23,135 bases of DNA from Ophryocystis elektroscirrha (Eukaryota; Apicomplexa; Conoidasida; Neogregarinorida; Ophryocystidae). Below the pieces are notes generated by a model. The model saw only the letters and a program-made list of their open reading frames with translations, was not told the DNA's origin and did no database searches. A program made the translations under genes and the position numbers. Location of the stretch: positions 1 to 23,135 of the forward strand of contig JAQIFP010000087.1 of NCBI GenBank assembly GCA_030141585.1, read 5' to 3'. Of the stretch, positions 521-21,782 are shown in pieces. Within the stretch, counting starts at the first letter, position 1. The number at the start of each line of letters is the position of its first letter.

Positions 521-2689
521 ATGGATACTATAAAGCTTAACATGGATGAATTACCCGAAGAGGTTAAATCACAAGTCACAAACTTAGCTAAACACATAAG
601 TTCCTTAAGAAAATTTGATATAAAACCAATTAAAACATCGGAAGATCAATGGACAACTCCCTCATACAACGATATATCTGATTCCATAAATATACCTCTT
701 ATATTTCAAATTTTACAAATGCCTCCAAACTCTCGAGCGACTGCAGCCTCAAATAGACAAGAATTTGATTACGCTTCTATTATAGCTAATACACTTGCGG
801 CTGCCGCAAACGGAAGACTTTCGAGTCTGCCTACTCAAGGGGAGATGGAAACCCGGGCTGAAATGTCCGACCAAAATACGGATTCGATTAATATAGAGCC
901 TATTAGAAATTTAACGGAAATGTCCGCTAGATCCAATTTAAATTCTTTGACTAATAACCAATCCAGTGTTCGAGTGTTGCCTAATTCAAATAACATGGAA
1001 TCAATTATAAATGCTGTTATTGAAACGCATAATCTTCTGAGTTTTAATACTGAACCAGAGAATCAAACTAATACCAATAATGAGAATACTCCTGTTGTGG
1101 AAGAACCTACTGAATTAGAAGTTGACTTAGATAGCTCCCAAATCACTACAGATCAACATCTAACGTCTGTAGATACTACTTTAAACTCTGATATACAAAT
1201 ATGTAATCAAAATAATATTGAAGCATCACTCGAAAATGATTCCAATGTTGAAGATACAACATCAAATAACTTTAGTATAAAATCAGAAAATCGTGCACAA
1301 GAAATTGTGGAGAGAGTAAATGACGATAATTTGATAACAAACTTTTCAAATCAAAATTTAAAAAATGAAAATTCTCAAATACAAAAAAAACGAAGATTTT
1401 CTTCAATGCATTCTAAAGATGACTTAAAAGATTTTGTATCAATCGAAAATATTGAAGAAATTTCTAATTATGATACTGTCTCCTCTGGGAAAACAGAAGA
1501 TGGCTCGAATCACTCGTTATCATATAAACGTCAACAATATGAAAAAGATGTAGAAATGGAACACTCTCCTTCAAGTCCTACTGTCGAAGATTATAGTAAT
1601 GACTTTATATTAGAAGCTACTAATCCTTCTCCAGAAAGAGTCGAATTAACGGAACCAGCAAATGTTATTGTAGAATCATCCCCTGAATTAGTTATCGAGT
1701 TATTGCCAAATCAGTCAGTTTTAGATGTAGATTCAAATAATAGTCAAACACCTGTAATCGCGGAACCTATTATAGATCAGTCTCCAGAGCCGGTTGTGGA
1801 ATCATCTCCCGAACTATTACTTCACCTTGCTCCAGTAGAAAATACAAGTCCCAATTACGATAAAAATGATTCCGTTTTGGAAGCGAATCAATCGGTAGAA
1901 GATGATAACTCGTCAAATTCGAGTGAATCTCTAATAATTTCTCCAAATGAACCATTAGTTGATTCTCTCCTTGTAATGGATTCTCAAAATGAAACATCTC
2001 AAAATAGATCTAATTTATTAAGTATTAACTCTCGAATATTTAACAACGCAGATTCACTTGAAGACACTTCAATGGAAACTCGTTTTGATGGACTCATAAC
2101 TCATTATTTAGCAAATGTCCGAAATCTTCAAGTAGCGAATTCAGACGCTCAAGAAGAATTCCTTCGTAATATATGCACAGAAATTTTGATGCAAGCTATG
2201 GCTGCCAGAGAACGTTTAAACAGAGGTTCTTCTCAAGAGAATGGAGACAGAACACAGAATCAATCTACAAATCCTAATTCGAATGTTAATTCTTTACAAA
2301 TAATTGATTTATTTTCTAATCAACAAAGGCAGTCGTCAACTGAGAGAAGAGAGGAAAATCGTACTGAAGCACAGGATAGCGCAATACCTTTGACAGAGGC
2401 ATTATTAACCCCTTTACTGAGCTCATTAAGTGGTGTTGCTGATGTCTCAGTACATACTGATTTTATTACACCGTCCGATACATTTGGAAGACAAGAAGCG
2501 TCCTCCCAACAGCAGCACAACACTGGCCTCAATAATAATATATTAAGAGAAATTTCTTTTATGTTAAATGAGTCCAATAGAATAATGCCATCTCAAAATT
2601 CGACTGTGTCACCAAGTCCAAATATTGATTCACATCTTCCAATAAACCCAACACGACTACTGCAAAACGACATTTCAGCCTCCAATACG

Positions 2690-2753
<64 letters not shown>

Positions 2754-3142
2754 ATGTAGCTGGAAACGGCAACGAGCAGCCTTCAGTGAGTGTTTCCGAA
2801 ACAACTGAAAATAGAGGAAATAACAGGAATCCAAATAATGCAGTCTCCATTATTTGGGTTTCAACTATGCAAGTTGATAGGCAAAGAGGAGTTGACAGAT
2901 CTGGCGTCTACCATTTTAGACATGAAGATTTCGAGTACAGGTGCCACTCTTTACCATGGAGAAACTGGGTTCAAACTAGAGCTGTTCCAGCATCACACTT
3001 TCGTGAAGTATATTTTACGAAAAAAAATGATTCCATCAAAGAAGAAACCTCAGCTGCTGCTCCCACCACCGAAGACCTTTTACTTACTGAATCATATCAG
3101 AAAAACCAATGTTTAACATTTGAAATTTTTTCCTTCTTCTAG
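521..3142 (+). CDS. Large acidic Asn/Ser/Glu-rich protein, function unknown
   Basis: Single long open frame of 873 codons starting at the first ATG and ending in TAG. I do not recognise the family. The first 100 residues are moderately ordered (start MDTIKLNMDELPEEVKS). The middle is low-complexity and acidic, rich in Asn, Ser, Glu and Gln, with a repeated SSPEL(V/L) motif around residues 385-430. Near residues 723-745 there is an Asn tract, broken once by Ile. The last 95 residues are more complex, contain aromatic and charged residues (WVSTMQVDRQRGVDRSG...; LPWRNWVQTRA) and may hold the functional domain. No signal peptide or membrane segment is visible. Asn-rich inserts of this kind are common in AT-rich apicomplexan proteins. 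It faces the aspartyl protease gene convergently. Confidence 0.75.
2690..2754 (+). repeat. (AAC)n trinucleotide run encoding poly-Asn
   Basis: Almost pure AAC repeat of about 21 units with one ATC interruption, lying in frame in the 521-3142 gene and encoding about 13 Asn, one Ile and 8 Asn. The codon is always AAC although neighbouring Asn codons are mostly AAT, so the run arose by slippage of a DNA repeat. On the other strand it reads as poly-Leu, which is a shadow. Confidence 0.95.
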
Positions 3143-7113: not shown

Positions 7114-9902
7114 ATGTTTAAATTAATTTTAACTTATGGATTTTCAATGATATTATGTTTTGTGAGTTTAGACAACAGTAATTCAATGAATTTTTACAGA
7201 ATCCAAATAAGCTTTTCAAGTCACTTGAAAGTAAAATTATATTAGTGTTATTCCCACAATGTAGACGTAGCCCCCATTGATCGAAAAGTAATTCTTATGA
7301 TTGATTAATATATCTAAGGGCATAGAAGAAGCTACACAAAAAATGGAAGTTAGTAAATAATTTTAACTATATTTATTATTAAATAGATTACAGCTCAAAA
7401 CATTATCAACAGCGAGAATGAAGCTAGCTCAGATAACAAAAATTACACATCGGATTGCCCAGAATATTGGTAAAATTACTTTTGTATCAAATGGAAATAA
7501 GGCATTCTAAAATTTTAAAGGATAAAACTATTCAATGTATAGCACCCGATAATTATGCAGGATTTTGCAAGCGTGTTCTCTCTTTTCAAAACATGAGCCT
7601 TATTGAAAGAGTAATCACTAGTAATGCCATGACAAATAAAACTAATAAGTTTTCTATAAAGTAGTTTAACTTCTGTTAATCCTATTTTATACTATTAAAA
7701 TTTTAATTAAATGATGTAAAACTTTTGTTCAATTTATTACAATAAGAAAATGTATTTTATTTTTAGGAAAATATGGCGATAAAATGTGATTTCGAGGTAC
7801 AAGTTGTATAATTTTGAGCTATTACACAGTGGCCAAAAAAAAAATCACAGACATGTGACATAAGTAATTTGATACAACACAAATTAGATTTAGACACTCA
7901 AGTTCAATGCCCACAAGCTTTTATACCACAAGTTTAAATGTCAATTAATGTAATTCAATGTTAGGACGATGGATCATGTATTCCTAATAGTAGTATATAT
8001 ACAGGAGTAAGCTATTGAAAATTTACATTTTTACAAGATATGCCAAACTCAAGTAAATTTTTCACGTAATAAGACAGGTGATGTAATGTGTTATATCAGG
8101 AATGAATAACAAAGAACGAATTGAGTGGGCAAATAATTGTAATGTGTGTAAGGCCAAACACAGTATGAATATTACTACTTTTATTTAGCTTGGCCGTGCA
8201 AAGATTACAACTCTTTAAATATTAGAAAACCTTGTACAAATTTGTAATATTTATGAATAACTATCAAGGTCCTTCAAATTGGATACTGAAGCCCTATAAC
8301 TGGTGCGAAAATACCTTAAACAATGGTACGATAAATAGACTATTTCAAATTTCCCATAGATAACCCAAAGTGGTAAAATAATGTAAATACAGTTTATTTA
8401 CTCAGTTCGGGTTCATTTAGATTTACTTACTGGACTGAGGTACTTCATAATTAGCTAGTCTAAATAAAGAATTGTATTCTTGTGTATTCAATGAAATTAA
8501 ATAAACGGTTGTTATCTAATTCTATTAATTTATGAAAACGTACATTTAAAAAGATTTTAGTCTTCATAAACAATTTATTAATATTTTAAAAATCAAGTTA
8601 ATTTAAAATAGAAATAATCATATTACTACTACAACATTACATTAATTTTTCTGTAAATTTTATAATAATAATCCTCTTAATTTTCATGTAAATACATGTG
8701 CTTGTATAGCAAACAATTTGCACTGCATGTAAATAATAATGAGATCTTTTTGAGATCTTTTATGTAATAGATCTTTATATGTGAACCATCTAAAAATATT
8801 AACAAGTTAAGTGAAATATATTAGGATATGATTGAAGACTTCATTGATTCGTGCAAACTATCTTGGTAACCAAAAAGAATTTAATTATAAATAGGTATAA
8901 GGACAGCATATGGTACACTTTACAATGAGCATTTATAAATACTAGTGAAAATATTGACTATGACTCAATTTGCCCTGAATCTTGGACGCTTATTAATAAT
9001 CTATGCGTAGACTCAAAAAAAAACTCTTGTAACATCAAATGTTGGAGTATTGCACTAAATCATTTATTTACAGCATCTGATTTTTCTATGTTTGACACTG
9101 AATCCAAACAAAAGTTCGAAAAAGAATGCGGTGTAACCTGGCCTTGTTTAAAAGAAGAAGAAAGAGACTGGACACGTAGTTAAACCTAGAAAAATATATA
9201 ATGTTATAGAAAAATGCCCTTCAAATTGGTCACTTTTATCAGTAGGTATTTTATATTATATATATAGTATTGAATAAAAAATTTAGACTATTCACAAAAA
9301 TGATAATTTATACCAAAAAATGTTATGTTTTACGTTTTAAAATACATGCAAGAAATTATTTTGTTGCATGTTGTTTTAAAAATCTAATGTTTTATGTTTT
9401 ATGAGATAGAAAGCTCATGTAATTACTAAAACAAATTATGTTTATTTGCTATCATGTAATTTAGATATAAATTAAAAAACATATATACATAATATATTTT
9501 TACATTCAAAATAGAGTGTCTGTGTACCTACAACATCGTGGAAACCACTGTTCATAAAATATAACTTTTGTAAACAGCCTCAATCTTTTGAACAATATAA
9601 TTGTTCACAAGTAATGTATACATTATAACATTTATTCTATCAGAAAAGAAAATTTGCTTCTGACTGTGATGCACCGTGGCCTTTTAAACGTAGCAGCATA
9701 AATACATATTCTCTAACTTATAAAAATAAAACAGATTCTGAAAGTAAGCATTACTTTGTTTGCAAAATTGCTTTTTTTCTAGTTATATATAGTGACGCCC
9801 AAATACCTAGTATAGATTATCTTAGAGTAAAATTCAATATGTTTTGAAAATGTAATTCAGGAAGGAGCTATAACTAAAGATATTTTAACAAATTACTTGT
9901 AA
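7114..9902 (+). CDS. CPW-WPC repeat secreted protein with 22 introns
   Basis: Secreted/surface protein of the apicomplexan CPW-WPC family. Exons: 7114-7161, 7246-7287, 7319-7352, 7394-7469, 7502-7610, 7767-7796, 7830-7863, 7894-7931, 7965-8006, 8038-8065, 8100-8147, 8189-8233, 8269-8325, 8360-8372, 8406-8439, 8825-8865, 8895-8912, 8946-9175, 9210-9241, 9515-9610, 9644-9743, 9783-9826, 9861-9902. All introns are GT...AG and phases match at every junction, giving 426 residues. A signal-like start (MFKLILTYGFSMILCF) precedes five domains starting at Cys63 (CPEYW...CDFEWP), Cys130 (CPQAF...CNVSWPC), Cys192 (CPSNW...CKLSWYKD), Cys255 (CPESW...CGVTWPC) and Cys325 (CPSNW...CDAPWPF). Domains 2 and 4 keep full WPC; 1, 3 and 5 are degenerate at its end. 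In Plasmodium this family is linked to ookinete surfaces; the role here is inferred. The first two exons are the least certain. Confidence 0.88.
8440..8824 (+). other. Long intron inside CPW-WPC domain 3
   Basis: 385-nt AT-rich intron, GTACTT to TTAG, phase 0, joining FTYWTE to DMIEDF. No coding signal or RNA gene is visible. It sits at the domain position where domain 1 has its 156-nt intron and domain 5 a 33-nt one. Confidence 0.75.
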
Positions 9903-9943: not shown

Positions 9944-12900
9944 ATGTCTAAGACTAAACCATCGCATGTCGGGTTGATAACTCTACCGAATAATGACGAA
10001 TACCTTAAATCGAAAATAGGGGGCACACCAGATTGGTTATGGTGGGACAAACCCTTGGAAATTCAAGATTGTAAATTATGTAAAAATAATCTTTCATTCA
10101 TTCTTCAATTATATACCTATAGACCAGCAATTCCTGCAGCTTATCATGTTGTGCTGTACTTATTTGGTTGTCTGATATGCAAAGAATCATTTACTTTACT
10201 TCGGTCTCAATTGCCATATCTAAATGATTACTTTCCAGTAGTGAATTATCAAACATATATGCCTAAGATGATATCACATTGTGTTGATTGTGGATTCAGA
10301 AAACACTCTATTATCTGTCCAGAAGTTATTCCTATATATGGGATTGATGTTGCGGTCATAAAATAGATTTAATATTAAAATTAATTATATCTTGTATAAA
10401 TAATAATAAAAAAATTCTTTTACTTAAATTGTGTAATATACTTACGATTTATACCGTTGTAATTAGTATTTATATTAATCTGGTGTTGCTTAATAAATAC
10501 ATTATTCATTCAACTAGCTGAGCTTAATTATTATGCATTATTAATTAATACGGAAACAATAATTATTGTAGTTTATAAAATAGAATCAAAATTTAGAAGT
10601 TATACTATTAAAACAAGATTAGTTACAAGCTTTGTTCTTAAATATACTTTAAAATAATAATAATTATAATTGATATTATAAACTGTTTGTATTTGTATTT
10701 TATTTTAGAGAGTTGAACAAGTTGCTGAAAATAAGAATTTATACATATACGAGGAAGTAAAGAGAGAATATCAAAGATCACTTTGGGGAGACCATTCTCA
10801 GATTGATGAAGCTGATAGTATTCCGTCAAATTCAAAATGTTTATCGCCACTGATACTTACAATAGATCAATTAACAAAAATGGACTCTGAAGAACAGTCT
10901 GATTTTAGTATCGAAGAAATATGCGATATATCAGAAACGAGTAAATGTTGTAATCAAAATATGCCTGATATTTCAAAATTATCTACAGCCAGTGATTCTA
11001 CAGCAGCATGTATTCAAATAGAGAATGTTTGTTCAGATCCCAAAGTCTCATGGTTTCAAAAAATGCTAAACATGTCAAGAAATTCTAGAAAAAAAAATGA
11101 ATACACACCCGTTACAGATTTGGATGACATGAATGATGATTTAAATGAAATGAAATTAAATGAACCACCTAAAAATATTTTCCGTCAAATGTTGGGTTTG
11201 AATCAATTGAGACCGTCAAAATCGAGGTGTGACTCAGCAGAAAAAATCGAATGTGAACGATTATTTCCAAAAGAGTTAATAACGTTCAAATCTTCTATTG
11301 AAGAGACAGATAAAAATAAAGAGTGTGAATTAAATGAAATAATGATGAGCCAAAATCAATCCAATAATCCTGGTACAAGTTCAACAAGAGAAGACGGTGC
11401 AATGAAAAAAATCAGCAAGTCGTTCAGACATTTTATTGCAAACTTTAAAGCTCCGGAAAATGGTACAAGAGATGCATTCGTGGAATTTGGAAGAAATATG
11501 TCTACTTGTAACAAAGTGGATTGTTTTTCTGAAAAAGAAGTTATCACAAATACGACATTAATTCTAAATGAAAAATGTACTCCAGCTGCTCAAACTAATT
11601 CAACTGCTTCAAGCAACTTATTAAATATAAGTCCTGAAAGTACAAATACAAAAGATTCTAACTTAATTTGTGAATCTAATAAATCAAACAAATCGGAACC
11701 TTCAACAACATTAAACCCTAAACCAATTGATAATACTGGTACTCTTAAAATGAAACCTCAAGTTAGTTCAAATGGACCTGTTTTACCTCCAGCTATAAAA
11801 CCTAGAATGAGTAAAGCTAATCAATCAATTAAGTGTGAACCAAAAACAACAAGTCCTGTTACTCCTTCTAATAAAAACTTATACCCATCTGCTGGCGATT
11901 TAAATATCACTAATTTATCAACAATTAATATACCATATAAAAAAAAATTCCATATTGCATTTGATAAAAATTCCTATGAGTCAAAACTTACAACTAGTAT
12001 TATCACTGAAGAATCCTCCTCAGAAATAGAACAAAATAGACATTTTTCTAGATTAACACCAGTCGGTAGTAGTATTTCCTCTACAATAGCATATAAAAGA
12101 TTTGATGTACGTCCCATTCCAAGAGAAAGGTCTTTTAAAATGCAAGAAAAACCTATAGAAAGAGTTAAATCATCTCAAATTCTTCTACGGAAAACTCCCA
12201 TGCCACAAACTTTAGATTTACAAGATGAAAAAAAAACCATAAAAGAGACTTTAGATGAAAAAGAGACTCAAAAAAAACCTTCAGGTGATAAAGAGACTCA
12301 AAAAAAAACTTCAGATGAAAAAGAGACTCAAAAAAAAACTTCAGATGAAAAAGAGACTCAAAAAAAAACTTCAGATGAAAAAGAGACTCAAAAAAAAACT
12401 TCAAATGAAAAAGAGACTCAAAAAAAAACTTCAGATGATAAAGAGACTTCGGATGATAAAGATACTTTAGATGAAAAAGAATTTCATAAACTAATTTTAA
12501 GTAATTCTCAAGGTTTTCCTAAAAAAAAATTTAAATCTTCAAAATCAACTTCAGCATTACAAAAAAATAAATCAACTTTTTCAGTACAAAAAGCTATATT
12601 TTTTGAAATTAAACCTATTCCAAGCATTCCAGATGTTTGTAGCGAATCCGAGAAGGAAGAATCATTAGAATCCTCTCAGGTTTCAAATGTGTCTGATTCA
12701 AGTCATTCTGATTTTGTTTACGTAAATACATATGATTTTACTGAATCACCTACTACCGCAAGTACAAATTCCGCTGATTCATCTGACCCTTCACAATCGC
12801 AGGAGTTCTCTAATTACCGAATCTCCAAAAGAAAATGTAAAAAAATGTTACCAATTCCAAAATGTTTAATACTAAAAACGGAATCAACTCCTTCAAAAGT

Positions 12901-13555
12901 CTCATTTCAATGTAAGATTATTCAAAAAATTTATTAATTTATTATTTATTATTATATATCTAAATTAAATATAGTTATCTAAATTTTAATTATATATAAA
13001 ATTATAATTATATATAAAATTATAATTATATATAAAATTATAATTATATATATAAAATTATAATTATATATATATATATGTTTAATTTAAATTTATAATT
13101 AGTTTATAATATCTTGAAATATAAATATTTATACAATTTGTATAGTTTTTTTGTATAGTTTTTTTGTATAGTTTTTTATATTAGTTATTTATATAATATA
13201 TAAATATGTATTATTTAATAAAATAAAATAAAATAAAAATATATGAAAATAATATTTAATATTTGCAGTTTTGAAAAAAAGTTTAAGCGTGGGTAAAAAA
13301 TCAAAATGGGAGTCTAGTTTTATAAAACATTATACTGAAAAGATACCCGCAGAATATAACGATGCGGCACATCAAGTACCAAAATGTCGATGTGGTAGAC
13401 AAAGAACTTTACAGTTTGAAATTACTCAAGAATTGGGAGCACAAATATATATATTCAAGAATATTAATTCTATTTTATTGTACACGTGTCCAGTTTACTG
13501 TGAGTTTTTAGATGTATGGCAGACGGAATTTGTTGTTGCACGAATTAAAAAGTGA
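9944..13555 (+). CDS. PDCD2/TSR4-family protein with giant low-complexity insertion
   Basis: PDCD2-family proteins (yeast Tsr4) are cytosolic chaperones for ribosomal protein uS5/RPS2. The N-terminal half is exon 1 (9944-10354): GLITLPNNDEYLKSKIGG-PDWL, the CKLCKNNLSFILQLY motif, FGCLICK, and CPEV before the intron. Exon 2 (10709-12911) is mostly Ser/Lys/Glu-rich low complexity with a 10-residue repeat. Exon 3 (13269-13555) holds the C-terminal domain: IPAEYN, PKCRCGRQRTLQFEITQ, YTCPVYC and EFVVARI. The exon 2/3 junction (T|GTAAG ... TTTGCAG|TT) is clear; the exon 1 donor (GCG|GTCATA) is weak and GAT|GTTGCG is an alternative. Joined length is about 966 residues against about 340 for human PDCD2, so roughly 600 residues are inserted. 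It starts only 41 bases after the CPW-WPC stop codon. Confidence 0.87.
10355..10708 (+). other. Intron 1 of the PDCD2/TSR4 gene
   Basis: About 354 nt of AT-rich sequence containing stops in all forward frames and ending in TATTTTAG. The acceptor is convincing because the following frame is open for over 2 kb; the donor is not a strong consensus. No gene is seen inside. Confidence 0.65.
12254..12447 (+). repeat. In-frame 30-bp coding repeat (DEKETQKKTS)n
   Basis: Six tandem copies of a unit of about 30 bp encoding D-E-K-E-T-Q-K-K-T-S, with small changes in the first (KKPSG) and last copies. The unit is a multiple of three, so copy-number change keeps the frame. Each unit contains an uninterrupted run of 8-9 A bases. 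It lies in the low-complexity insertion of the PDCD2/TSR4 gene. Confidence 0.95.
12985..13181. repeat. Two minisatellites in PDCD2/TSR4 intron 2
   Basis: From about 12985 to 13075 there is a tandem AT repeat with a unit of about 18 bp (TTATATATAAAATTATAA type), about five copies ending in a TA run. From about 13139 to 13181 there are three copies of a 13-bp unit, GTATAGTTTTTTT. Both are inside the 357-nt intron 12912-13268. Confidence 0.85.
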
Positions 13556-13856: not shown

Positions 13857-15096
13857 ATGCGTGAAGTAATAAATATACATATTGGACAAGCGGGAGTTCA
13901 ATTAGGGAATGCATGTTGGGAATTATTATGTTTAGAGCATGATATTAAACCTGATGGAACTAAACAAACACCCTACGATCAATCACATCACACCTTCTTT
14001 AGTGAAGGTATGAAAACGTTAGTTCCGAGAGCCATCTTTGTTGATTTGGAACCCACTGTAATAGATGAAATTAAAACAGGTCATTACAAACGTTTATTCC
14101 ATCCTGATCAGCTAATATCGGGCAAAGAAGATGCTGCCAATAATTATGGCAGAGGTTTTTTTACCGTAGGAAAAGAACAATTGGAAACTACGATGAATTG
14201 TATACGCCGTGTTGCTGAAAATTGTACTGGTTTACAAGGTTTTTTGATATTTAATTCTGTTGGAGGAGGAACCGGTTCTGGTTTTGCAAGTCTATTACTC
14301 GAACAACTTTCCATGGAATATACAAGAAAGTCGAAATTAAATTTCTGCATATGGCCATCACCACATTTATCAACAGCAGTAGTAGAGCCGTATAACTCAG
14401 TTTTGTCAAGCGATAAATTATTGGAGTATACAGATATATCAGTAATGTTTGATAATGAAGCCATATATGATATATGTTCAAAAAAGCTAAGAGTAGACTT
14501 TACAACTTACACGAATTTGAATCGATTAATATCGCAAGTAATATCATCTTTAACAGCCTCTTTACGATTTGATGGAGCCTTAAATGTCGATCTTACGGAA
14601 TTTCAAACTAATCTTGTACCATACCCGAGGATTCATTTTATGCTATCTTCATATGCTCCTATAAATCCCGCTGCCTCCTATGAATTAAATTCGACTCAAG
14701 AAATCACAAATCGAGCGTTTGATTCCAGTTATATGTTTGCTAAATGCGACCCCATGAAAAATGGCAAATTTATGTCCTGTTGCTTAATGTACAGAGGCGA
14801 TGTTACACCAAAAGATGTAAATGCCGCAGTTGCAAACATAAAAACCAAAAAAAATATTAAATTTGTTGATTGGTGTCCAACCGGGTTTAAATGTGGAATT
14901 AATTACCACCCGCCTGTAGTAGTTCCAAACAGTGGTACTGCTCAAACTAATCGTGGCTGTGCAATGATTTCTAATAATACAGCTATAACTGAAATATTTG
15001 GTCGCATTAATCACAAATTTGATGTCATGTTTTCCAAGAGAGCATTTGTACACTGGTAAATTGCACACAGTTTTCCATGTCGACAAATCGACACAT

Positions 15097-15129
<33 letters not shown>

Positions 15130-15398
15130 TATTAATTAATCTAATTTATATAAATATTTACAGTAAAATTTATATTTTACATAAATAATTATTTTATTAT
15201 ATATACAAAATAGCAAAAATTAGTTTTTTTTTGTACTAAAAAGCTTTATTACATAATAATTAGTATTTCCGTGTACTTATCATAGTCTTATCTTGTATCA
15301 GGTACATAAGTGAAGGTCTGGAAGAAGGAGATATGCAAGATGCACGGGATAATTTAGCTTTACTAGAAAAAGATTATGAAGAAGTCTCTATAGAATAA
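13857..15398 (+). CDS. Divergent alpha-tubulin
   Basis: Microtubule subunit. Exon 1 is 13857-15055 and exon 2 is 15302-15398. The 246-nt intron splits the Trp codon (TG|GTAAAT...ATCAG|G), giving 431 residues. Diagnostic features: [22 protein letters not shown] at the N-terminus, the GTP-binding loop [24 protein letters not shown] with the catalytic Glu that marks alpha-tubulin, [12 protein letters not shown], and RAFVHWY before the C-terminal helix. Oddities: the loop that carries acetylatable Lys40 is about five residues shorter and has no matching Lys-Thr context, and the protein stops at [10 protein letters not shown], so the acidic C-terminal tail and terminal Tyr are missing. The luminal/M-loop side is also divergent ([16 protein letters not shown]). 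This suggests a specialised isotype. Intact frame and motifs argue against a pseudogene. Confidence 0.97.
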
Positions 15399-15544: not shown

Positions 15545-17014
15545 ATGTTGCATTACTTTACTATATGGTTCGTGCTTATATCATACATTTGCGCTCAAAA
15601 TGTATTTTATGACTTACAAAGCTCATATACGACTCCAGGAGCTGCAACTGAAGATTGCCGTGGTGTGGTAGGAAGAACAATTCCAAACGATTTATGCGAA
15701 GACTTATGTAACATAAGTAGAAATCAATACAGATTTTTCCAGCGATGTTTTGACGATGCATTTTACATAGCAAAATGCTATGGTGCGTTTAACTTTTGGT
15801 TCAATACAACGGAAACAAATAAACCATTAATTCAAATACCTCTTTATTATAAAATGAGACGCAAAGTTGATACGCCGCGAGCTTGTCAAACTGAATGTCA
15901 ACATGTGCGTAATTGTTATTGGTTTGTGTACAACGGAATGGGTTCTAGTACGGTTGATTCATATTCTGAAAATGGGCAATATAATTGTTATTTAATGACA
16001 CTTAGTGATTTAGTTAATACAAATTTACTTTTATATGAAAAATTTATCCAGATGCCAAAATTGAAGCCTGAAGATGAAGTCCTTGAAGATTACTTTTGTC
16101 TAAGTAACGCTAAGTATCCGTCGAGAAACCGCTTAGTTTGTAATGATTATCAATTATGTGCAGATTGGACTGTATTTGAAAGTTCAACAAAATTGACTTA
16201 CGATCAATTAATTTCTAACCAGCCAGAAAAATTTCAAAGTTACATTAATGTCGTTGTATCTGGTCCTCAATTTTGCGATCTAAATTGGACTGATAACTGG
16301 GAAGATAAATTTTGTCCTCCTCTTGTTATATTATACGAAAAACTTCATCCAGATGCTTATTTTAAGTCGAATTTCCCTCGAAATCAAGTACTTGAACCAG
16401 GAGAAGAAAGAGTTACTAAATACTTAGTCAGACAAACCAAAGACAAGCTTTATATAGTTAATGATACTTATGCACAATCATTTATTCCTCAAAGTTCAAA
16501 TAATTTGGATAGAAATAAGCCGAACTATGTAGATTTGTATTTTGCTTATAACGTGATGTCCTCAAATGTAAAAAACCCAGCTTCCGCCGCTGTTTCCATG
16601 ATCCGCCTCAACAAAAAAACCCAACAAGTAACTAACCCAAAAAACGAAAATAATTCTGATAATAGGGAAATAACTGATAATACTAATAATGATAATAATA
16701 CAACAAATATTACTTATAATAAAACTAACAGCAATTTACCCGCAGAAAAACTTGATGCCACAGAATCCAATAAAAATGAAGCTCAAGAATCGGAAACCAC
16801 TGAATCCATAACTGAACCAATCGAAAACAATTCAAAAACTGAAAATACCAATAATATCAATAAAAATATCTCCAAAGCAACTGTTATTGGAATTTGTTCG
16901 ATAACACCTCTTTTAGCTCTTTTAGGTGGAATTTATTACGCAATGAAAGTTCGCAAAACAAAAATGCAAACCGATGAACTAAAGAAAGCCTTACCTCAAG
17001 CAAATTTCGAATAA
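15545..17014 (+). CDS. Type I membrane protein with PAN/apple-like Cys region
   Basis: Single-exon frame of 489 residues with no family I can name. Residues 1-18 (MLHYFTIWFVLISYICAQ) form a signal peptide. The ectodomain is Cys-rich: CRGVVGRTI...LCEDLC...RCFDD...KCYGAF, then a segment resembling a PAN/apple module (TPRACQTEC, then NCYWFVYN, then NCYLM), then a second block with FCLS, VCNDYQLCADW, FCDLNW and FCPP. About residues 345-440 are an Asn/Thr/Glu-rich stalk. One membrane helix follows at about 445-467 (VIGICSITPLLALLGGIYY) and a short basic tail ends in QANFE. PAN modules occur in apicomplexan micronemal adhesins, so a surface or micronemal role is possible but is inference. It begins 146 bases after the tubulin stop. 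Confidence 0.82.
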   Translation: MLHYFTIWFVLISYICAQNVFYDLQSSYTTPGAATEDCRGVVGRTIPNDLCEDLCNISRNQYRFFQRCFDDAFYIAKCYGAFNFWFNTTETNKPLIQIPLYYKMRRKVDTPRACQTECQHVRNCYWFVYNGMGSSTVDSYSENGQYNCYLMTLSDLVNTNLLLYEKFIQMPKLKPEDEVLEDYFCLSNAKYPSRNRLVCNDYQLCADWTVFESSTKLTYDQLISNQPEKFQSYINVVVSGPQFCDLNWTDNWEDKFCPPLVILYEKLHPDAYFKSNFPRNQVLEPGEERVTKYLVRQTKDKLYIVNDTYAQSFIPQSSNNLDRNKPNYVDLYFAYNVMSSNVKNPASAAVSMIRLNKKTQQVTNPKNENNSDNREITDNTNNDNNTTNITYNKTNSNLPAEKLDATESNKNEAQESETTESITEPIENNSKTENTNNINKNISKATVIGICSITPLLALLGGIYYAMKVRKTKMQTDELKKALPQANFE

Positions 17015-17094: not shown

Positions 17095-18178
17095 ATGTAT
17101 AATCAAAATGGAAATAAGGGTGTTATAAAAACTTTTTTTTTTTTATCTAATTCTTTAATAAATGAATATCAAGATTTAATATTGTATGATTTTACGGAAT
17201 CATTTCAATCTAATTATCAATTACGTCAAAAATTATACGCACATTTCTTTGATGATCACACCTTACTTGTTAGTAAAAAGTTTGAATCTTTTTTCCAAAA
17301 TACAATAATTTCAAAATACTTGAATTCATTATTAAATTGTCATCAAGATTTCCATTTATACAGAAAAGAATCCTCAAACTCAAGTAAGAAACATTTCTTT
17401 TTAATTTACCATAGACAACGCTTGCGAATCACTTAAAAAAAACCTATCCTGTATAAAATTTCTAAAATTTAACAAATTTAACATTTTCAAAAGTCGGCAG
17501 TATAATCAAATAACAGACAAAAATCGTAAATCTCAAAAATTACAAACACCTAGTAGTTTGGTACTTCATAATCTAGCTAATTGTCAAATAATCAATAAAT
17601 TATCTTTGAAGCGATTAATAAAAAAACGTCAATTATTTTTATTCCCCATAAAACGTAAAATAAAGAAGTCAAAATTCCGCTTCAAATCTAAACTTTCCAC
17701 AAAATCTAGCATCCAACAACAAATTATTGTTAAAAGCCATATAAGAGAGCTGCTTAATTATTTCAACAGCTACTACCAATTCTTCAAATTGTTAAAAAAA
17801 TGTTTAATAAAATTAAATTTAATGAAAAAAATATTACCCATATTGAAGGATTACACATTATTCATGTACTTGAAAGGGCTTGAATATTTAACAGATATTG
17901 AAATGGATAGCGTGGTTCAGATAATCAAAAATACATTTGTTGAAACGCTTAGTCATTATATTAATATGTACTCCTCATTATTAAGGCATAAATTAGACCC
18001 ACCAAAATTACATATATTAGGAAAATCCACACACAAGAGTTGGATCAATTTATGTAATTATTTTGGAACAAATAAAGATTTCATTTTGAATGTATAGATG
18101 TATATATTTATAAGTTTAATAGTTATCTATATCTATTCATTTATATATTTGTATTTATATTATTTATATTATTTATAT

Positions 18179-18212
<34 letters not shown>

Positions 18213-19467
18213 ATTAAATATTATTAGGAATAAATTACAGATTTACTATACATCAATTATAATTTAACAAAATTAAATATTAATTGTTTTAGGATGATAC
18301 ATCCCTCAATACTAATATAGCTTCTATCGTTTGCCAAGATTATTACAAAAATCATAAATTAGATGGATCTATTTTTATAAAGAAACCAAAAGAAACAGTC
18401 CACCAACAAATTAGTGTCACCGCTTCCACGTGTAATATTTTATCAAAACATCAGCAAAGTATAGTTGAAGCTATTGTGAAATACATTATTCAACCCTTAT
18501 CACTACGAGTAATGAATAGTAAATTTAAGCATCAATATTATACAATAAAGAATAAAATGCAACTAATTTAAGTGATTTTAATATACTTATTAGCATAAAT
18601 AAAATAAATATATATATATATATATATATATATCAACATTAACATTAATGATAATATAATATATTGATAATTATTATGATTTTAATGAAGATACGGTTAT
18701 TGATCTTGTTAAATGTATTGTTATATATAGGACATGTATGAAAAATTAAACATACCATCCACGCCAAGAATATTGTTATATGGAAAAAATGATTACGCAA
18801 AGAAATTCATTTTCAAACACTTATTGACTGAATATGCCCAATTTGAAATCAAAATTGTTCACGTTACATGCTTATATTCCAAATATATTGGTGATACGGA
18901 GAAAAAGATCAGAGAGCTATTTGCTGAGGTTTGAAGATGCTAGTCTAATTTCTGCACACATATCAGTGAATAAAATATTCTAAAATAATAAATAAACTAT
19001 TTAAAATATATCTATATATATTAAATAGAATTATATTATATTTAATTTATATATTAAATATATAATAATTTAGTAATTAATACTTATAAACTTATCCATA
19101 TAAACACATTATATTATATCCATTAATTTATAATATAAATATAACATAAATTATTGAAGTTTCTTGTGCAATATCTTTTTTTTTTTTTTAGACCCACACA
19201 AAAGACAAAATTATAGTTTTAGATGGGTTAGAACTAATTGCATACAAAGGATATATATCTCAAAACGAATCCAATTTCAGGAGACGTTTACTCACAACTC
19301 TACTTTTGTGCTTAGACTCGGTTGAACGCCAAATTTTTAATATTGCTGTGATTGGTGTAGCTAAATTAGAGCCCACATCTTTGGATGATGCATTGACTAG
19401 ACCTGGAAGGCTAGATCAATGGATAAGTCTTGACGACGTTTATAATGAAGTTCCCGAAAATAAATAA
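17095..19467 (+). CDS. Degenerate AAA-type ATPase domain protein
   Basis: Five exons, 17095-17383, 17415-18091, 18293-18508, 18731-18928 and 19192-19467, with introns of 31, 201, 222 and 263 nt, join in frame to 551 residues. The N-terminal 330 residues are basic and unrecognised. The C-terminal 200 are a single AAA domain: IVEAIVKYIIQPLSL, then MYEKLNIPSTPRILLYG, pore-loop region YSKYIGDTEKKIRELFAE, Walker B position IIVLDGLELIA, and LDDALTRPGRLD. Walker A is GKNDYAKK in place of GPPGTGKT (Lys kept, glycines and Thr lost), Walker B has Gly where the catalytic Glu should be, and sensor-1 Asn is Lys. ATP hydrolysis is therefore unlikely. The alpha-helical lid is absent. The pore region recalls PEX1, PEX6 and SPATA5-type AAA proteins, without a firm match. 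A 34-nt alternative last intron (19450-19483) would change the final residues and end the gene at 19513. Confidence 0.75.
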
Positions 19468-19644: not shown

Positions 19645-21423
19645 ATGTCAACTGGCAAAATTTCTATTGCATTGATCAGAATAACAATTTTAGGATTTAA
19701 AGGTTGTGGAAAGTCTTCTTTAGTGAATTGTTTCGTAAATAATTCTGATGAAACGGTGACTGAATCTACGCAATTTCCTGAGTACTCTTATTTTTATTAT
19801 TTTTTTGATGTAAAGGCTGTATTACCGAGTATTACGACTTTCCTCGCAAGACTCAGAAGAACCTGAAGTTTCTGTTTGCGTGGAAATTGAGGATACTCCA
19901 TATATAGCAACGAAAGGATCAGTTAATACTAGTATTAATAGATCAAATATATTACTGCATATATTAATAACATTTTAACATAGTTTTTTTTCTTAGGATG
20001 AAAGAAGAAACTTATTTGCTGTTTCTAATTTCTACGACATGACCAGAACATCAAGTAAAATGCTTTTGACGTGCATATATTGATAAGTTACTTCTAATAA
20101 AATTGATCCTGAAAAAGTTGTACCATTTAATATATGGAACGCACCCTTATCAACTGTATTCCCCAGTCACCCATGCCATGTCCCGTTATCGCATTGTAAT
20201 TTATATGTATATATATATATATATATATTTAAGGTTTCTATATAACTGATTACTATGACATACAAAAGCTAAATATACATCAATATATATTTATACGTTA
20301 AGGTATATGTATACACATTATAATGTTACTTAATATAAATCCAACTGTGTGTATATAGCAATATTTGTATATACATCTATACGGTTGAAATTATACAGAT
20401 ATGGTACATGCATATATATGCATGTGTATTTAATAGGTCAAGCGATTGAAGCGGCGATAAATACATAATATTAAATATATATATATATATATATAACAAT
20501 AATTACGCTAATGCAGCTGTAGTATATTTTAGTTAATACAAACTAAACTTATATGTGGTATTTTGTATAAACTATATGTAAAATATGAATCAGCAAGAAT
20601 GGGGTACATGATACTCTTTGAAGCGGGAAATATACATTCCTTAGAAGTAGCTATGACAATTCATGCTTCATTTCTCCAATATATGGATATTAAAAAAATC
20701 CAGCAAAGACCTCATATATTTTTTATTGCTACTAAAATGGGTAAAAATCATTGATTATTCATAAAATAACTTATAATAATAATATGGTAATAATAATTTA
20801 ATAATTATAATATAATAATAATAATATAATAATATAATAATATAATAATATAATAATAATAATATAATAATATAATAATATAATAATAATTATAATAATA
20901 ATATAATAATAATATGATAATAATAACATAATAATAATAATATAATAATAATACAATAATAATAATATAATAATAATAATAATAATAATAATATAATATA
21001 ATAATAATAATAATAATAATAATATAATAATAATAACTATATTAATAATAATTATATAAATAATATGACTATAGTTACTAGCTATGATAATAATTTAATT
21101 CTGTAATTGAACTTAATGTCTATATATTTACTGAAGTTAAAATAATTAATTGACTATTAGTGTCTTACAATTACAGATCGCAAAAATGACGACCCTATAT
21201 TTCAGAAAACTATCCAAATGGCTGAGGAGTACACGTAAGAAAGTTCCAAAGTAAATGAATTCTTAGAAGCAGAATGTCTACACGGTTGATAAAAGTCTCA
21301 ACTATAACATTTAAAAACGTTGATAAAGTTAAGCTATTATTTTTTGCATCAATTTTTATAGGCATTTCGAGCCTTAGCGCATTTGGTGCTAGGAAACCAA
21401 ACACTGTGGATTATGGATATTAA
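19645..21423 (+). CDS. Atypical Ras-like small GTPase, seven exons
   Basis: Exons 19645-19781, 19816-19921, 19997-20054, 20088-20195, 20594-20740, 21177-21234 and 21267-21423 join in frame to 256 residues; introns are 34, 75, 33, about 398, 436 and 32 nt. G motifs appear in order: P-loop GFKGCGKSS (about residues 17-25), ELYYRVLRL in the switch I region, VEIEDTPY (the DxxG Gly replaced by Tyr), IFFIATKMD for N/TKxD, and KVSTITFKNVDKVK as the G5 loop and last helix. Some 40 residues rich in Pro and His are inserted between G3 and the core strand GYMILFEAGN. The C-terminus (ARKPNTVDYGY) has no prenylation Cys, so Rab/Ras-type lipid anchoring is not expected; the hydrophobic LLFFASIFIGI segment could be the last helix or a tail anchor. 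The exon 5 start is uncertain: an acceptor at 20532 with donor at 20205 or so is an alternative. Family placement beyond Ras-like is not possible by eye. Confidence 0.8.
20196..20593 (+). other. Long intron 4 of the GTPase gene
   Basis: About 398 nt of AT-rich DNA with a TA run near 20205-20229 and 20478-20494. The donor T|GTAATT and acceptor GAATCAG|CA rejoin frame as SHSRMGYMILFEAGN. The 3' part (20533-20593) is also open in the exon 5 frame, so the true acceptor could lie earlier. No separate gene is visible. Confidence 0.55.
20771..21053. repeat. (AAT)n trinucleotide microsatellite
   Basis: About 280 bases of imperfect AAT/ATA repeat with frequent dinucleotide slips (ATAATATAATAAT patterns). 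It lies in the 436-nt intron between GTPase exons 5 and 6. Confidence 0.9.
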
Positions 21424-21782
21424 AAATGTAATGATAAATTGTCTTCTTTCAACAATTATTAGAGTAAAACAAAACAAGAGAAAAGTCAAAACTCTATTAG
21501 TGAGTTATAAAAACTCCTTCAAATACAACACATAACACACAAAAAATGCTGTCGTAGCACGATTTTATACACAAAATTTAATAAAATGTATCCAAAACCC
21601 AAAAATACATTCGACCAGACGGAATAATGCTCAAACAATCAATTTATTACATTTTTCTCACAATTTTGTTCAATTATTTATTATTGTAAAATAAATTAAA
21701 TCATGCATACGCTTAATAATGACTATTTCGAATATGAAATTTAAGTGGGTAATTTTTCTCTCATGACTAGGCACTTAAAATA
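21424..21782 (+). other. Intergenic region upstream of the karyopherin gene
   Basis: 359 bases with stops in all frames, less repetitive than other spacers and with some purine-rich stretches (AGTAAAACAAAACAAGAG). It should hold the 3' end of the GTPase gene and the promoter of the karyopherin gene. I see no RNA gene or further exon. Confidence 0.5.

Follow-up and report, generated by a model that had tools for sequence, protein, structure and literature searches.

A heavily fragmented CPW-WPC gene in the genome of the neogregarine Ophryocystis elektroscirrha

Introduction

Can a gene lie in DNA in which no long reading frame is visible, and how finely can it be divided? The question is raised by positions 7114 to 9902 of a 23,135-nucleotide stretch, here called the window, from Ophryocystis elektroscirrha, by taxonomy a neogregarine parasite of monarch butterflies. 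The window is one whole contig of the assembly analysed (8,008,172 bases, 118 contigs) and has a GC content of about 27%. The published genome is described as having 27.18% GC, a k-mer size of about 8.11 Mb and a scaffold N50 of 89,860 bp, and comprises 156 scaffolds and 8.6 Mb, compared with the 118 contigs and 8.0 Mb used here (PMC10210345).

The segment carries a CPW-WPC gene that is heavily fragmented, to a degree that is extreme even among the sampled genes of this genome. The best explanation, to which a probability of roughly 0.92 is assigned, is a functional nuclear neogregarine gene whose five-domain CPW-WPC protein is produced by ordinary GT-AG splicing.

Structure of the gene

The longest stop-free run on the forward strand of 7114..9902 is 84 amino acids, which bears out the sequence-only reading that no long open frame can be seen. 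The 426-residue spliced protein proposed in that reading was rebuilt as a 1281-nt CDS, stop included, that begins with the ATG at 7114, four codons downstream of an in-frame stop, and ends with the TAA at 9902. The 23 exons and 22 introns of that reading equal the count of a domain-blind gene model, whereas the best model, curated by hand, has 25 exons and 24 introns. The exons range from 13 to 109 nt with a median of 42, close to the median intron of 33.5 nt, so the near-equality of exon and intron size that had been noted was recovered. The proposed intron length of mostly 29-41 nt also holds (19 of 24); 21 introns are 22-41 nt long and the other three measure 156, 273 and 385 nt. All 24 have GT..AG borders by choice of the model. 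The donor has A at +3 in 20 of the 24. In no case is the final AG preceded by G, and the A that is conserved six bases upstream of the acceptor in Porospora is not evident in these 24 introns.

All exons lie on the forward strand, and the motif places given here are those of the curated model. Exon 1 (7114..7161) encodes a hydrophobic start that by eye resembles a signal peptide, and is followed by exons 2 (7200..7230), 3 (7265..7287) and 4 (7319..7348). The 3' end of exon 4 is uncertain: the gene models favour 7353-7393 over the intron chosen here, 7349-7386. The first CPW-WPC domain (7456..7838, CPEYW to WPK) begins in exon 5 (7387..7469), where an intron splits CPEY from W, continues through exons 6 (7502..7610) and 7 (7767..7796), and ends in exon 8 (7830..7863). 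Domain 2 (7908..8199, CPQAF to WPC) extends from exon 9 (7894..7931) through exons 10 (7965..8006), 11 (8038..8077) and 12 (8100..8147), the last of which follows the shortest intron (8078-8099, 22 nt), to the WPC in exon 13 (8189..8233). Domain 3 (8233..8901), which runs from CPSNW to a degenerate WYK, takes in exons 14 (8269..8325), 15 (8360..8372, at 13 nt the smallest), 16 (8406..8439), after which comes the longest intron (385 nt), 17 (8825..8865) and 18 (8895..8912). Exons 19 (8946..9046) and 20 (9074..9175) carry domain 4 (8971..9147, CPESW to WPC), and exons 21 (9210..9241), 22 (9515..9610) and 23 (9644..9743) carry domain 5 (9215..9685, CPSNW to WPF). Exon 24 (9783..9826) and exon 25 (9861..9902), with the stop TAA, complete the gene.

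The reading frame needs the removal of 21 of the 24 introns because the retention of any one of them breaks it; only 7864-7893, 9047-9073 and 9744-9782 could be kept with the frame still open. Together with 7349-7386, these are the four junction choices that have alternatives.

The CPW-WPC domains

A Pfam search of the curated protein returned a single family, CPW_WPC (PF09717), at 154.4 bits and 1.4e-45 in five stretches, against a curated cut-off of 23 bits; the five domains expected from the sequence-only reading were thus found. An earlier curated version with one differing junction gave 1.6e-45. Because knowledge of the motif guided the manual choice of the junctions, the score of the curated model is not an independent test. 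The product spliced by the domain-blind model with untrained splice scores still matched CPW_WPC at 112.5 bits and 1.7e-32 in four stretches, and among the matches listed by a search without splicing, domain 4 was the only one from this gene. Four of the five domains start with CPxxW and one with CPxxF. Two end in WPC and domains 1, 3 and 5 in WPK, WYK and WPF, so that the final Cys is missing from these three and some decay is possible. The tandem number, five in the curated model, is the one typical of the family. A search of a protein database that probably lacks the published annotation of this species found one weak relative, of 235 aa with two CPW-like repeats in a single open frame, and a search of solved structures found no relative.

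These scores also bear on the number of introns. The introns 7864-7893 (30 nt, before exon 9) and 9047-9073 (27 nt, before exon 20) are stop-free, have lengths that are multiples of three, and are those absent from the 22-intron count. One or both may be coding, which would give a real gene of 23 or 24 exons, a variant of the best explanation rather than a departure from it. The domain-blind model finds 22 introns, and a protein in which 7864-7893 is kept scores 155.7 bits, compared with 154.4 when it is removed. On the other hand, the domain score is 149.6 bits with 9047-9073 retained and 154.4 once it is removed, and removal of 7864-7893 leaves seven residues from Cys to CP, by eye like the linkers of the paralogues. 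The smaller number of introns is judged somewhat short of an even chance.

Coding signal and chance

The coding signal was measured with a gene model that combined the codon usage of five other open reading frames in the window with generic, untrained splice scores and an intron-length prior peaked at 36 nt. The real segment scored 198.5. Its reverse complement reached 51.0, and 100 dinucleotide shuffles averaged 50.7 +/- 10.3 with a maximum of 74.7, which places the real segment 14 standard deviations above the shuffles with no domain input. The agreement in phase emphasised in the sequence-only reading fared less well. The spliced frame is indeed open, but a phase-consistent open path is no evidence alone because the shuffles yielded such paths of 282 aa on average, two of the 100 reaching 400 aa or more; phase agreement was accordingly discarded as proof of a gene. 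None of the 100 shuffle decoys contained CPxxW or WPC, and the longest of them, the one submitted to Pfam, had no CPW_WPC match. The independent evidence consists of the coding score, the lack of the motif in all 100 decoys and the domain-blind product at 1.7e-32, and on this evidence the CPW-WPC coding signal is real.

A single-gene model applied to 10-kb stretches fused everything into one gene each and was replaced by a multi-gene model that included an intergenic state. The latter recovered the locus as a whole gene (7147-9902, 22 introns, stop at 9902) in three of six settings; the remaining three, which had stricter intron penalties, split it into two or three pieces. With untrained splice scores the gene was whole in one of three settings, that with the mildest intron penalty, and in pieces in two, and 18 of 22 introns were as curated; with splice scores trained on the curated introns it was whole in two of three settings, and 20 of 22 introns agreed. 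A window-wide run in which the length prior was flat and the splice scores were untrained found 12 of the 24 introns of an earlier curated version exactly. It also merged neighbouring genes, and was used for the intron-length distribution only.

The same results weigh on the possibility that the locus is a decaying CPW-WPC pseudogene, its frame mended by an analyst who removed chance GT..AG segments. The long open paths of the shuffled sequence, the loss of the terminal Cys in three of the five domains and the fitting of the curated model by hand all speak for decay. Against it stands the coding score, to which no domain contributed. Moreover, the removed segments form a narrow length class that recurs elsewhere under a flat prior and is also found in intact multi-domain genes, and the five other loci of the family are likewise rich in introns. 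A pseudogene is considered very improbable, and a functional gene remains the preferred reading.

Other genes of the window

The remaining gene calls of the window contain few introns. At the middle setting, the calls at 521-3142 and 15545-17014 have none, the gene at 9944-13555 has two and the call at 17095-19467 has four; an aspartyl-protease-like gene on the reverse strand, modelled separately, has five. The alpha-tubulin-like gene at 13857-15398 (+; Pfam Tubulin, 1.1e-57) is predicted to have a single intron, of about 246 nt, close to its 3' end. A nicotinamidase-like gene call has two, one of 261 nt and another that carries the call past the stop of the gene. At 19645-21510 (+) lies a second fragmented gene, encoding a Ras-like GTPase (PF00071, 3.7e-8), with about nine predicted exons and, in a model built separately, eight introns, some short and some of about 400 nt.

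Additional features of the contig were noted. The single-exon gene at 15545-17014 (+) encodes a 489-aa orphan with an N-terminal hydrophobic stretch and, by eye, a C-terminal hydrophobic segment; its PAN-like match is weak (0.0014, below the cut-off), and none of 5,333 protein-database candidates reached E 0.001. The gene that starts at 9944 had appeared PDCD2-like by eye, and this assignment was rejected when Pfam gave no match for the partial sequence; its long exon contains tandem KETQKKTSDE-type repeats at 12230-12470. Long TA-rich simple repeats occupy both contig ends (1-310 and 22900-23135) and may have ended the assembly there.

Short introns across the genome

The domain-blind multi-gene model was applied to the first 9.9 kb of 17 contigs (168 kb) and produced 72 gene calls with 315 introns, or 4.28 per kb CDS; with the threshold unchanged, 10 calls were made in block-shuffled sequence. 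The 62 calls of at least 450 nt had a median of 4.0 introns per kb CDS and a maximum of 14.5, and with untrained splice scores 64 such calls had a median of 4.2 and a maximum of 15.0. The CPW-WPC gene has 16.9 (blind) or 18.7 (curated) introns per kb CDS, and none of the 62 calls is denser.

Short introns are widespread in the same sample. With the length prior, 145 of 253 survey introns were shorter than 50 nt, and at least one such intron was present in 38 of 47 strongly scoring gene calls. Under the flat prior with untrained scores, 33 (merged) gene calls contained 586 introns, of which 147 formed a clear peak at 30-39 nt. Since introns of about 33 nt recur and are common in the sampled stretches of the genome, the CPW-WPC gene is the extreme of a continuum and not a lone oddity. 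Six-frame matches to the chaperonin family PF00118 fell into 43 pieces on nine contigs, some of which overlap or read through stops; housekeeping genes are therefore interrupted too. The 490 positions of that family are cut into about five pieces, compared with 25 for the CPW-WPC gene.

The ordinary GT-AG spliceosome would have to remove 24 introns from the pre-mRNA of this gene, 21 of them only 22-41 nt long, and the same machinery would clear the many introns of about 33 nt from other genes.

Paralogues, LCCL genes and intron positions

A profile search of the contigs located six CPW_WPC loci with at least 13 matches. The five loci outside the window, when spliced, matched the family at 3.5e-75 (five stretches), 2.9e-48 (four), 7.4e-33 (four), 3.6e-30 (two) and 2.1e-15 (two), figures obtained from sequences of which some were partial, one contained an error and one mixed two models. 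Their gene models have 14-24 introns each and unreliable ends that probably run into neighbouring sequence. At a stricter setting, four of these loci had 8.1-10.1 introns per kb, and the match at the fifth (C75) was covered by no call. The relatives thus carry many introns, though at a density clearly below that of the gene in the window.

The genome also encodes LCCL proteins, at three loci of which two were confirmed by Pfam. Their gene calls have 8.7, 10.3 and 9.2 introns per kb, values exceeded by seven, four and five of the 62 survey calls, respectively. The LCCL gene at C40 (L020:1348-7266, reverse strand) was predicted without domain input to have 38 exons and 37 introns, 32 of them short. 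Its product contains four LCCL domains (LCCL 3.1e-82), two SRCR domains and a Laminin_G_3 domain, and resembles a Plasmodium LAP protein. A second LCCL prediction, at C96, has 27 introns and combines PA14 with LCCL.

The positions of the introns were compared in an alignment of 22 domain copies of the six CPW-WPC genes, which held 60 introns at 52 distinct sites. After three unreliable copies had been dropped, the test of sharing covered the 39 introns that fell within 58 columns of good alignment. In this set, four pairs of domain copies had an intron at the same position and phase, compared with 4.15 +/- 1.97 expected at random (P 0.60), and 33 pairs lay within 3 nt, compared with 26.2 +/- 5.0 (P 0.11). 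The 113 introns of the six models were distributed over the three phases as 41/35/37. Positions are not common to the domain copies beyond chance, and the introns do not track the repeats. Given this lack of sharing, the most likely order of events is duplication of the domain repeats first and insertion or turnover of the introns later; recent gain and old inheritance both fit this result.

Under the first of these, introns of about 33 nt would have been inserted en masse in this lineage into the CPW-WPC and LCCL sexual-stage module once the repeats had formed, with positions random and every phase represented. We regard this as doubtful. The short-intron class of the six CPW-WPC genes is centred on 31-34 nt, and when 90 short introns of these genes were compared with one another the best match had E=0.018 per query; the introns cannot be recognised as copies of each other, and introner-like elements were rejected as their source. 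The density in the window gene, 18.7, is about three times the mammalian value of about 6 introns per kb CDS (PMC3488318), and on this reading the module would offer a natural system in which to study intron gain without introner sequence families.

Under the second, the introns descend from an intron-rich alveolate ancestor and were kept in rarely expressed sexual-stage genes while being lost elsewhere. This history is compatible with the best explanation and comes close to an even chance. It is consistent with the multi-intron CPW-WPC-type gene TA19820 of Theileria annulata (PMC5460460), with a genomic span longer than the CDS in six of the eight P. berghei members tabulated (PMC3637178) and, to judge by its title, with a 2008 paper on intron-rich alveolate ancestors cited in PMC3488318. 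The lack of above-chance sharing between domain copies and the nearly even phases argue against it, in a comparison made within one genome and not between orthologues.

Possible role of the protein

In Plasmodium, CPW-WPC genes are transcribed in gametocytes and translated in zygotes and ookinetes (PMC3637178). The proteins are reported to lie on the surface of the ookinete or, together with the LCCL/LAP complex, in the crystalloid (PMC3637178, PMC7487766), and several belong to the LAP3 interactome (PMC7487766). The function of the domain is stated as unknown in these papers (PMC3637178, PMC7487766), and in P. yoelii the knock-out of one member left ookinetes, oocysts and sporozoite numbers unaffected (PMC3637178). 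By analogy, the protein described here probably acts with LCCL proteins in the zygote-to-oocyst stage, in which sporozoites are formed. Membership of an LCCL/LAP-type module is the simplest inference because this genome also encodes LCCL genes, one of which joins LCCL to SRCR and lectin-like domains, and the hydrophobic start of the protein, signal-peptide-like as judged by eye only, suggests that it may be secreted.

Consequences for annotation

The locus shows that an insect gregarine keeps the CPW-WPC family, and that the exons and introns of a real gene in this genome can be tiny and almost alike in size. The expectation in the sequence-only reading that standard gene finders would miss the gene is a prediction; a simple model that admits short introns found it whole in three of six settings and in pieces in three. 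Default minimum intron lengths are 70 nt in TopHat and about 50 nt in GeneMark-ES. In the published work, RNA from infected monarch pupae was aligned with TopHat for scaffolding and the official gene set, for which a BUSCO value of 80.9% is given, came from GeneMark-ES (PMC10210345). If the defaults were applied, many of the published models would be wrong, and comparisons of gene loss would need care. A much larger number of genes is not indicated: by a crude estimate, the 72 survey calls less the 10 from shuffled sequence in 168 kb correspond to about 3,000 genes in 8.0 Mb, compared with the published count of 2,633 (PMC10210345). Ribosomal protein L37, said to be absent from the published annotation (PMC10210345), was looked for as a gene that short introns might have kept out of it. 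This was unsupported, as neither L37e (PF01907) nor L37ae (PF01780) had a six-frame match in the genome contigs; the gene is either missing from the contigs or too fragmented for an exon-by-exon search.

Comparison with known systems

In the accessible text of the O. elektroscirrha genome paper, no discussion of short introns or of CPW-WPC was found (PMC10210345), and the literature retrieved on Ophryocystis and introns included, by title, none on gene structure. Among the gregarine-related papers found in a search that was mostly without subscription journals, none described a neogregarine CPW-WPC gene. The family itself has already been reported from apicomplexans and chromerids (PMC11285972, PMC4501334). 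In Plasmodium it is tabulated with eight members in one paper (PMC3637178) and described as nine-member in another (PMC7487766). Its domains occur there in tandem, with five in six of the eight tabulated members, as in the window gene (PMC3637178).

The two lineages differ in gene structure. Some Plasmodium members have introns, for example one with 2,843 bp of genomic sequence for a CDS of 1,116 bp, and in two of the eight tabulated P. berghei members the genomic length equals the CDS (PMC3637178), as against 24 introns in 1,281 nt here. The median intron of P. falciparum is 140 bp (PMC9250747), compared with 33.5 nt in the window gene. A very short class is known from other compact apicomplexan genomes, with a mode of 28 nt in Porospora cf. 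gigantea and of 20 nt in Babesia microti; Porospora, in which an A six bases upstream of the acceptor is conserved, averages 1.8 introns per intron-bearing gene (PMC9250747). A further comparison is with TA19820 of Theileria annulata, a piroplasm and not a gregarine, whose annotation was revised with homology and RNA reads to include three longer introns and one more intron (PMC5460460). Set beside these systems, the gene described here is an unusually fragmented member of a known family, of interest for the extreme density of its introns and for the warning that it may carry for annotation.
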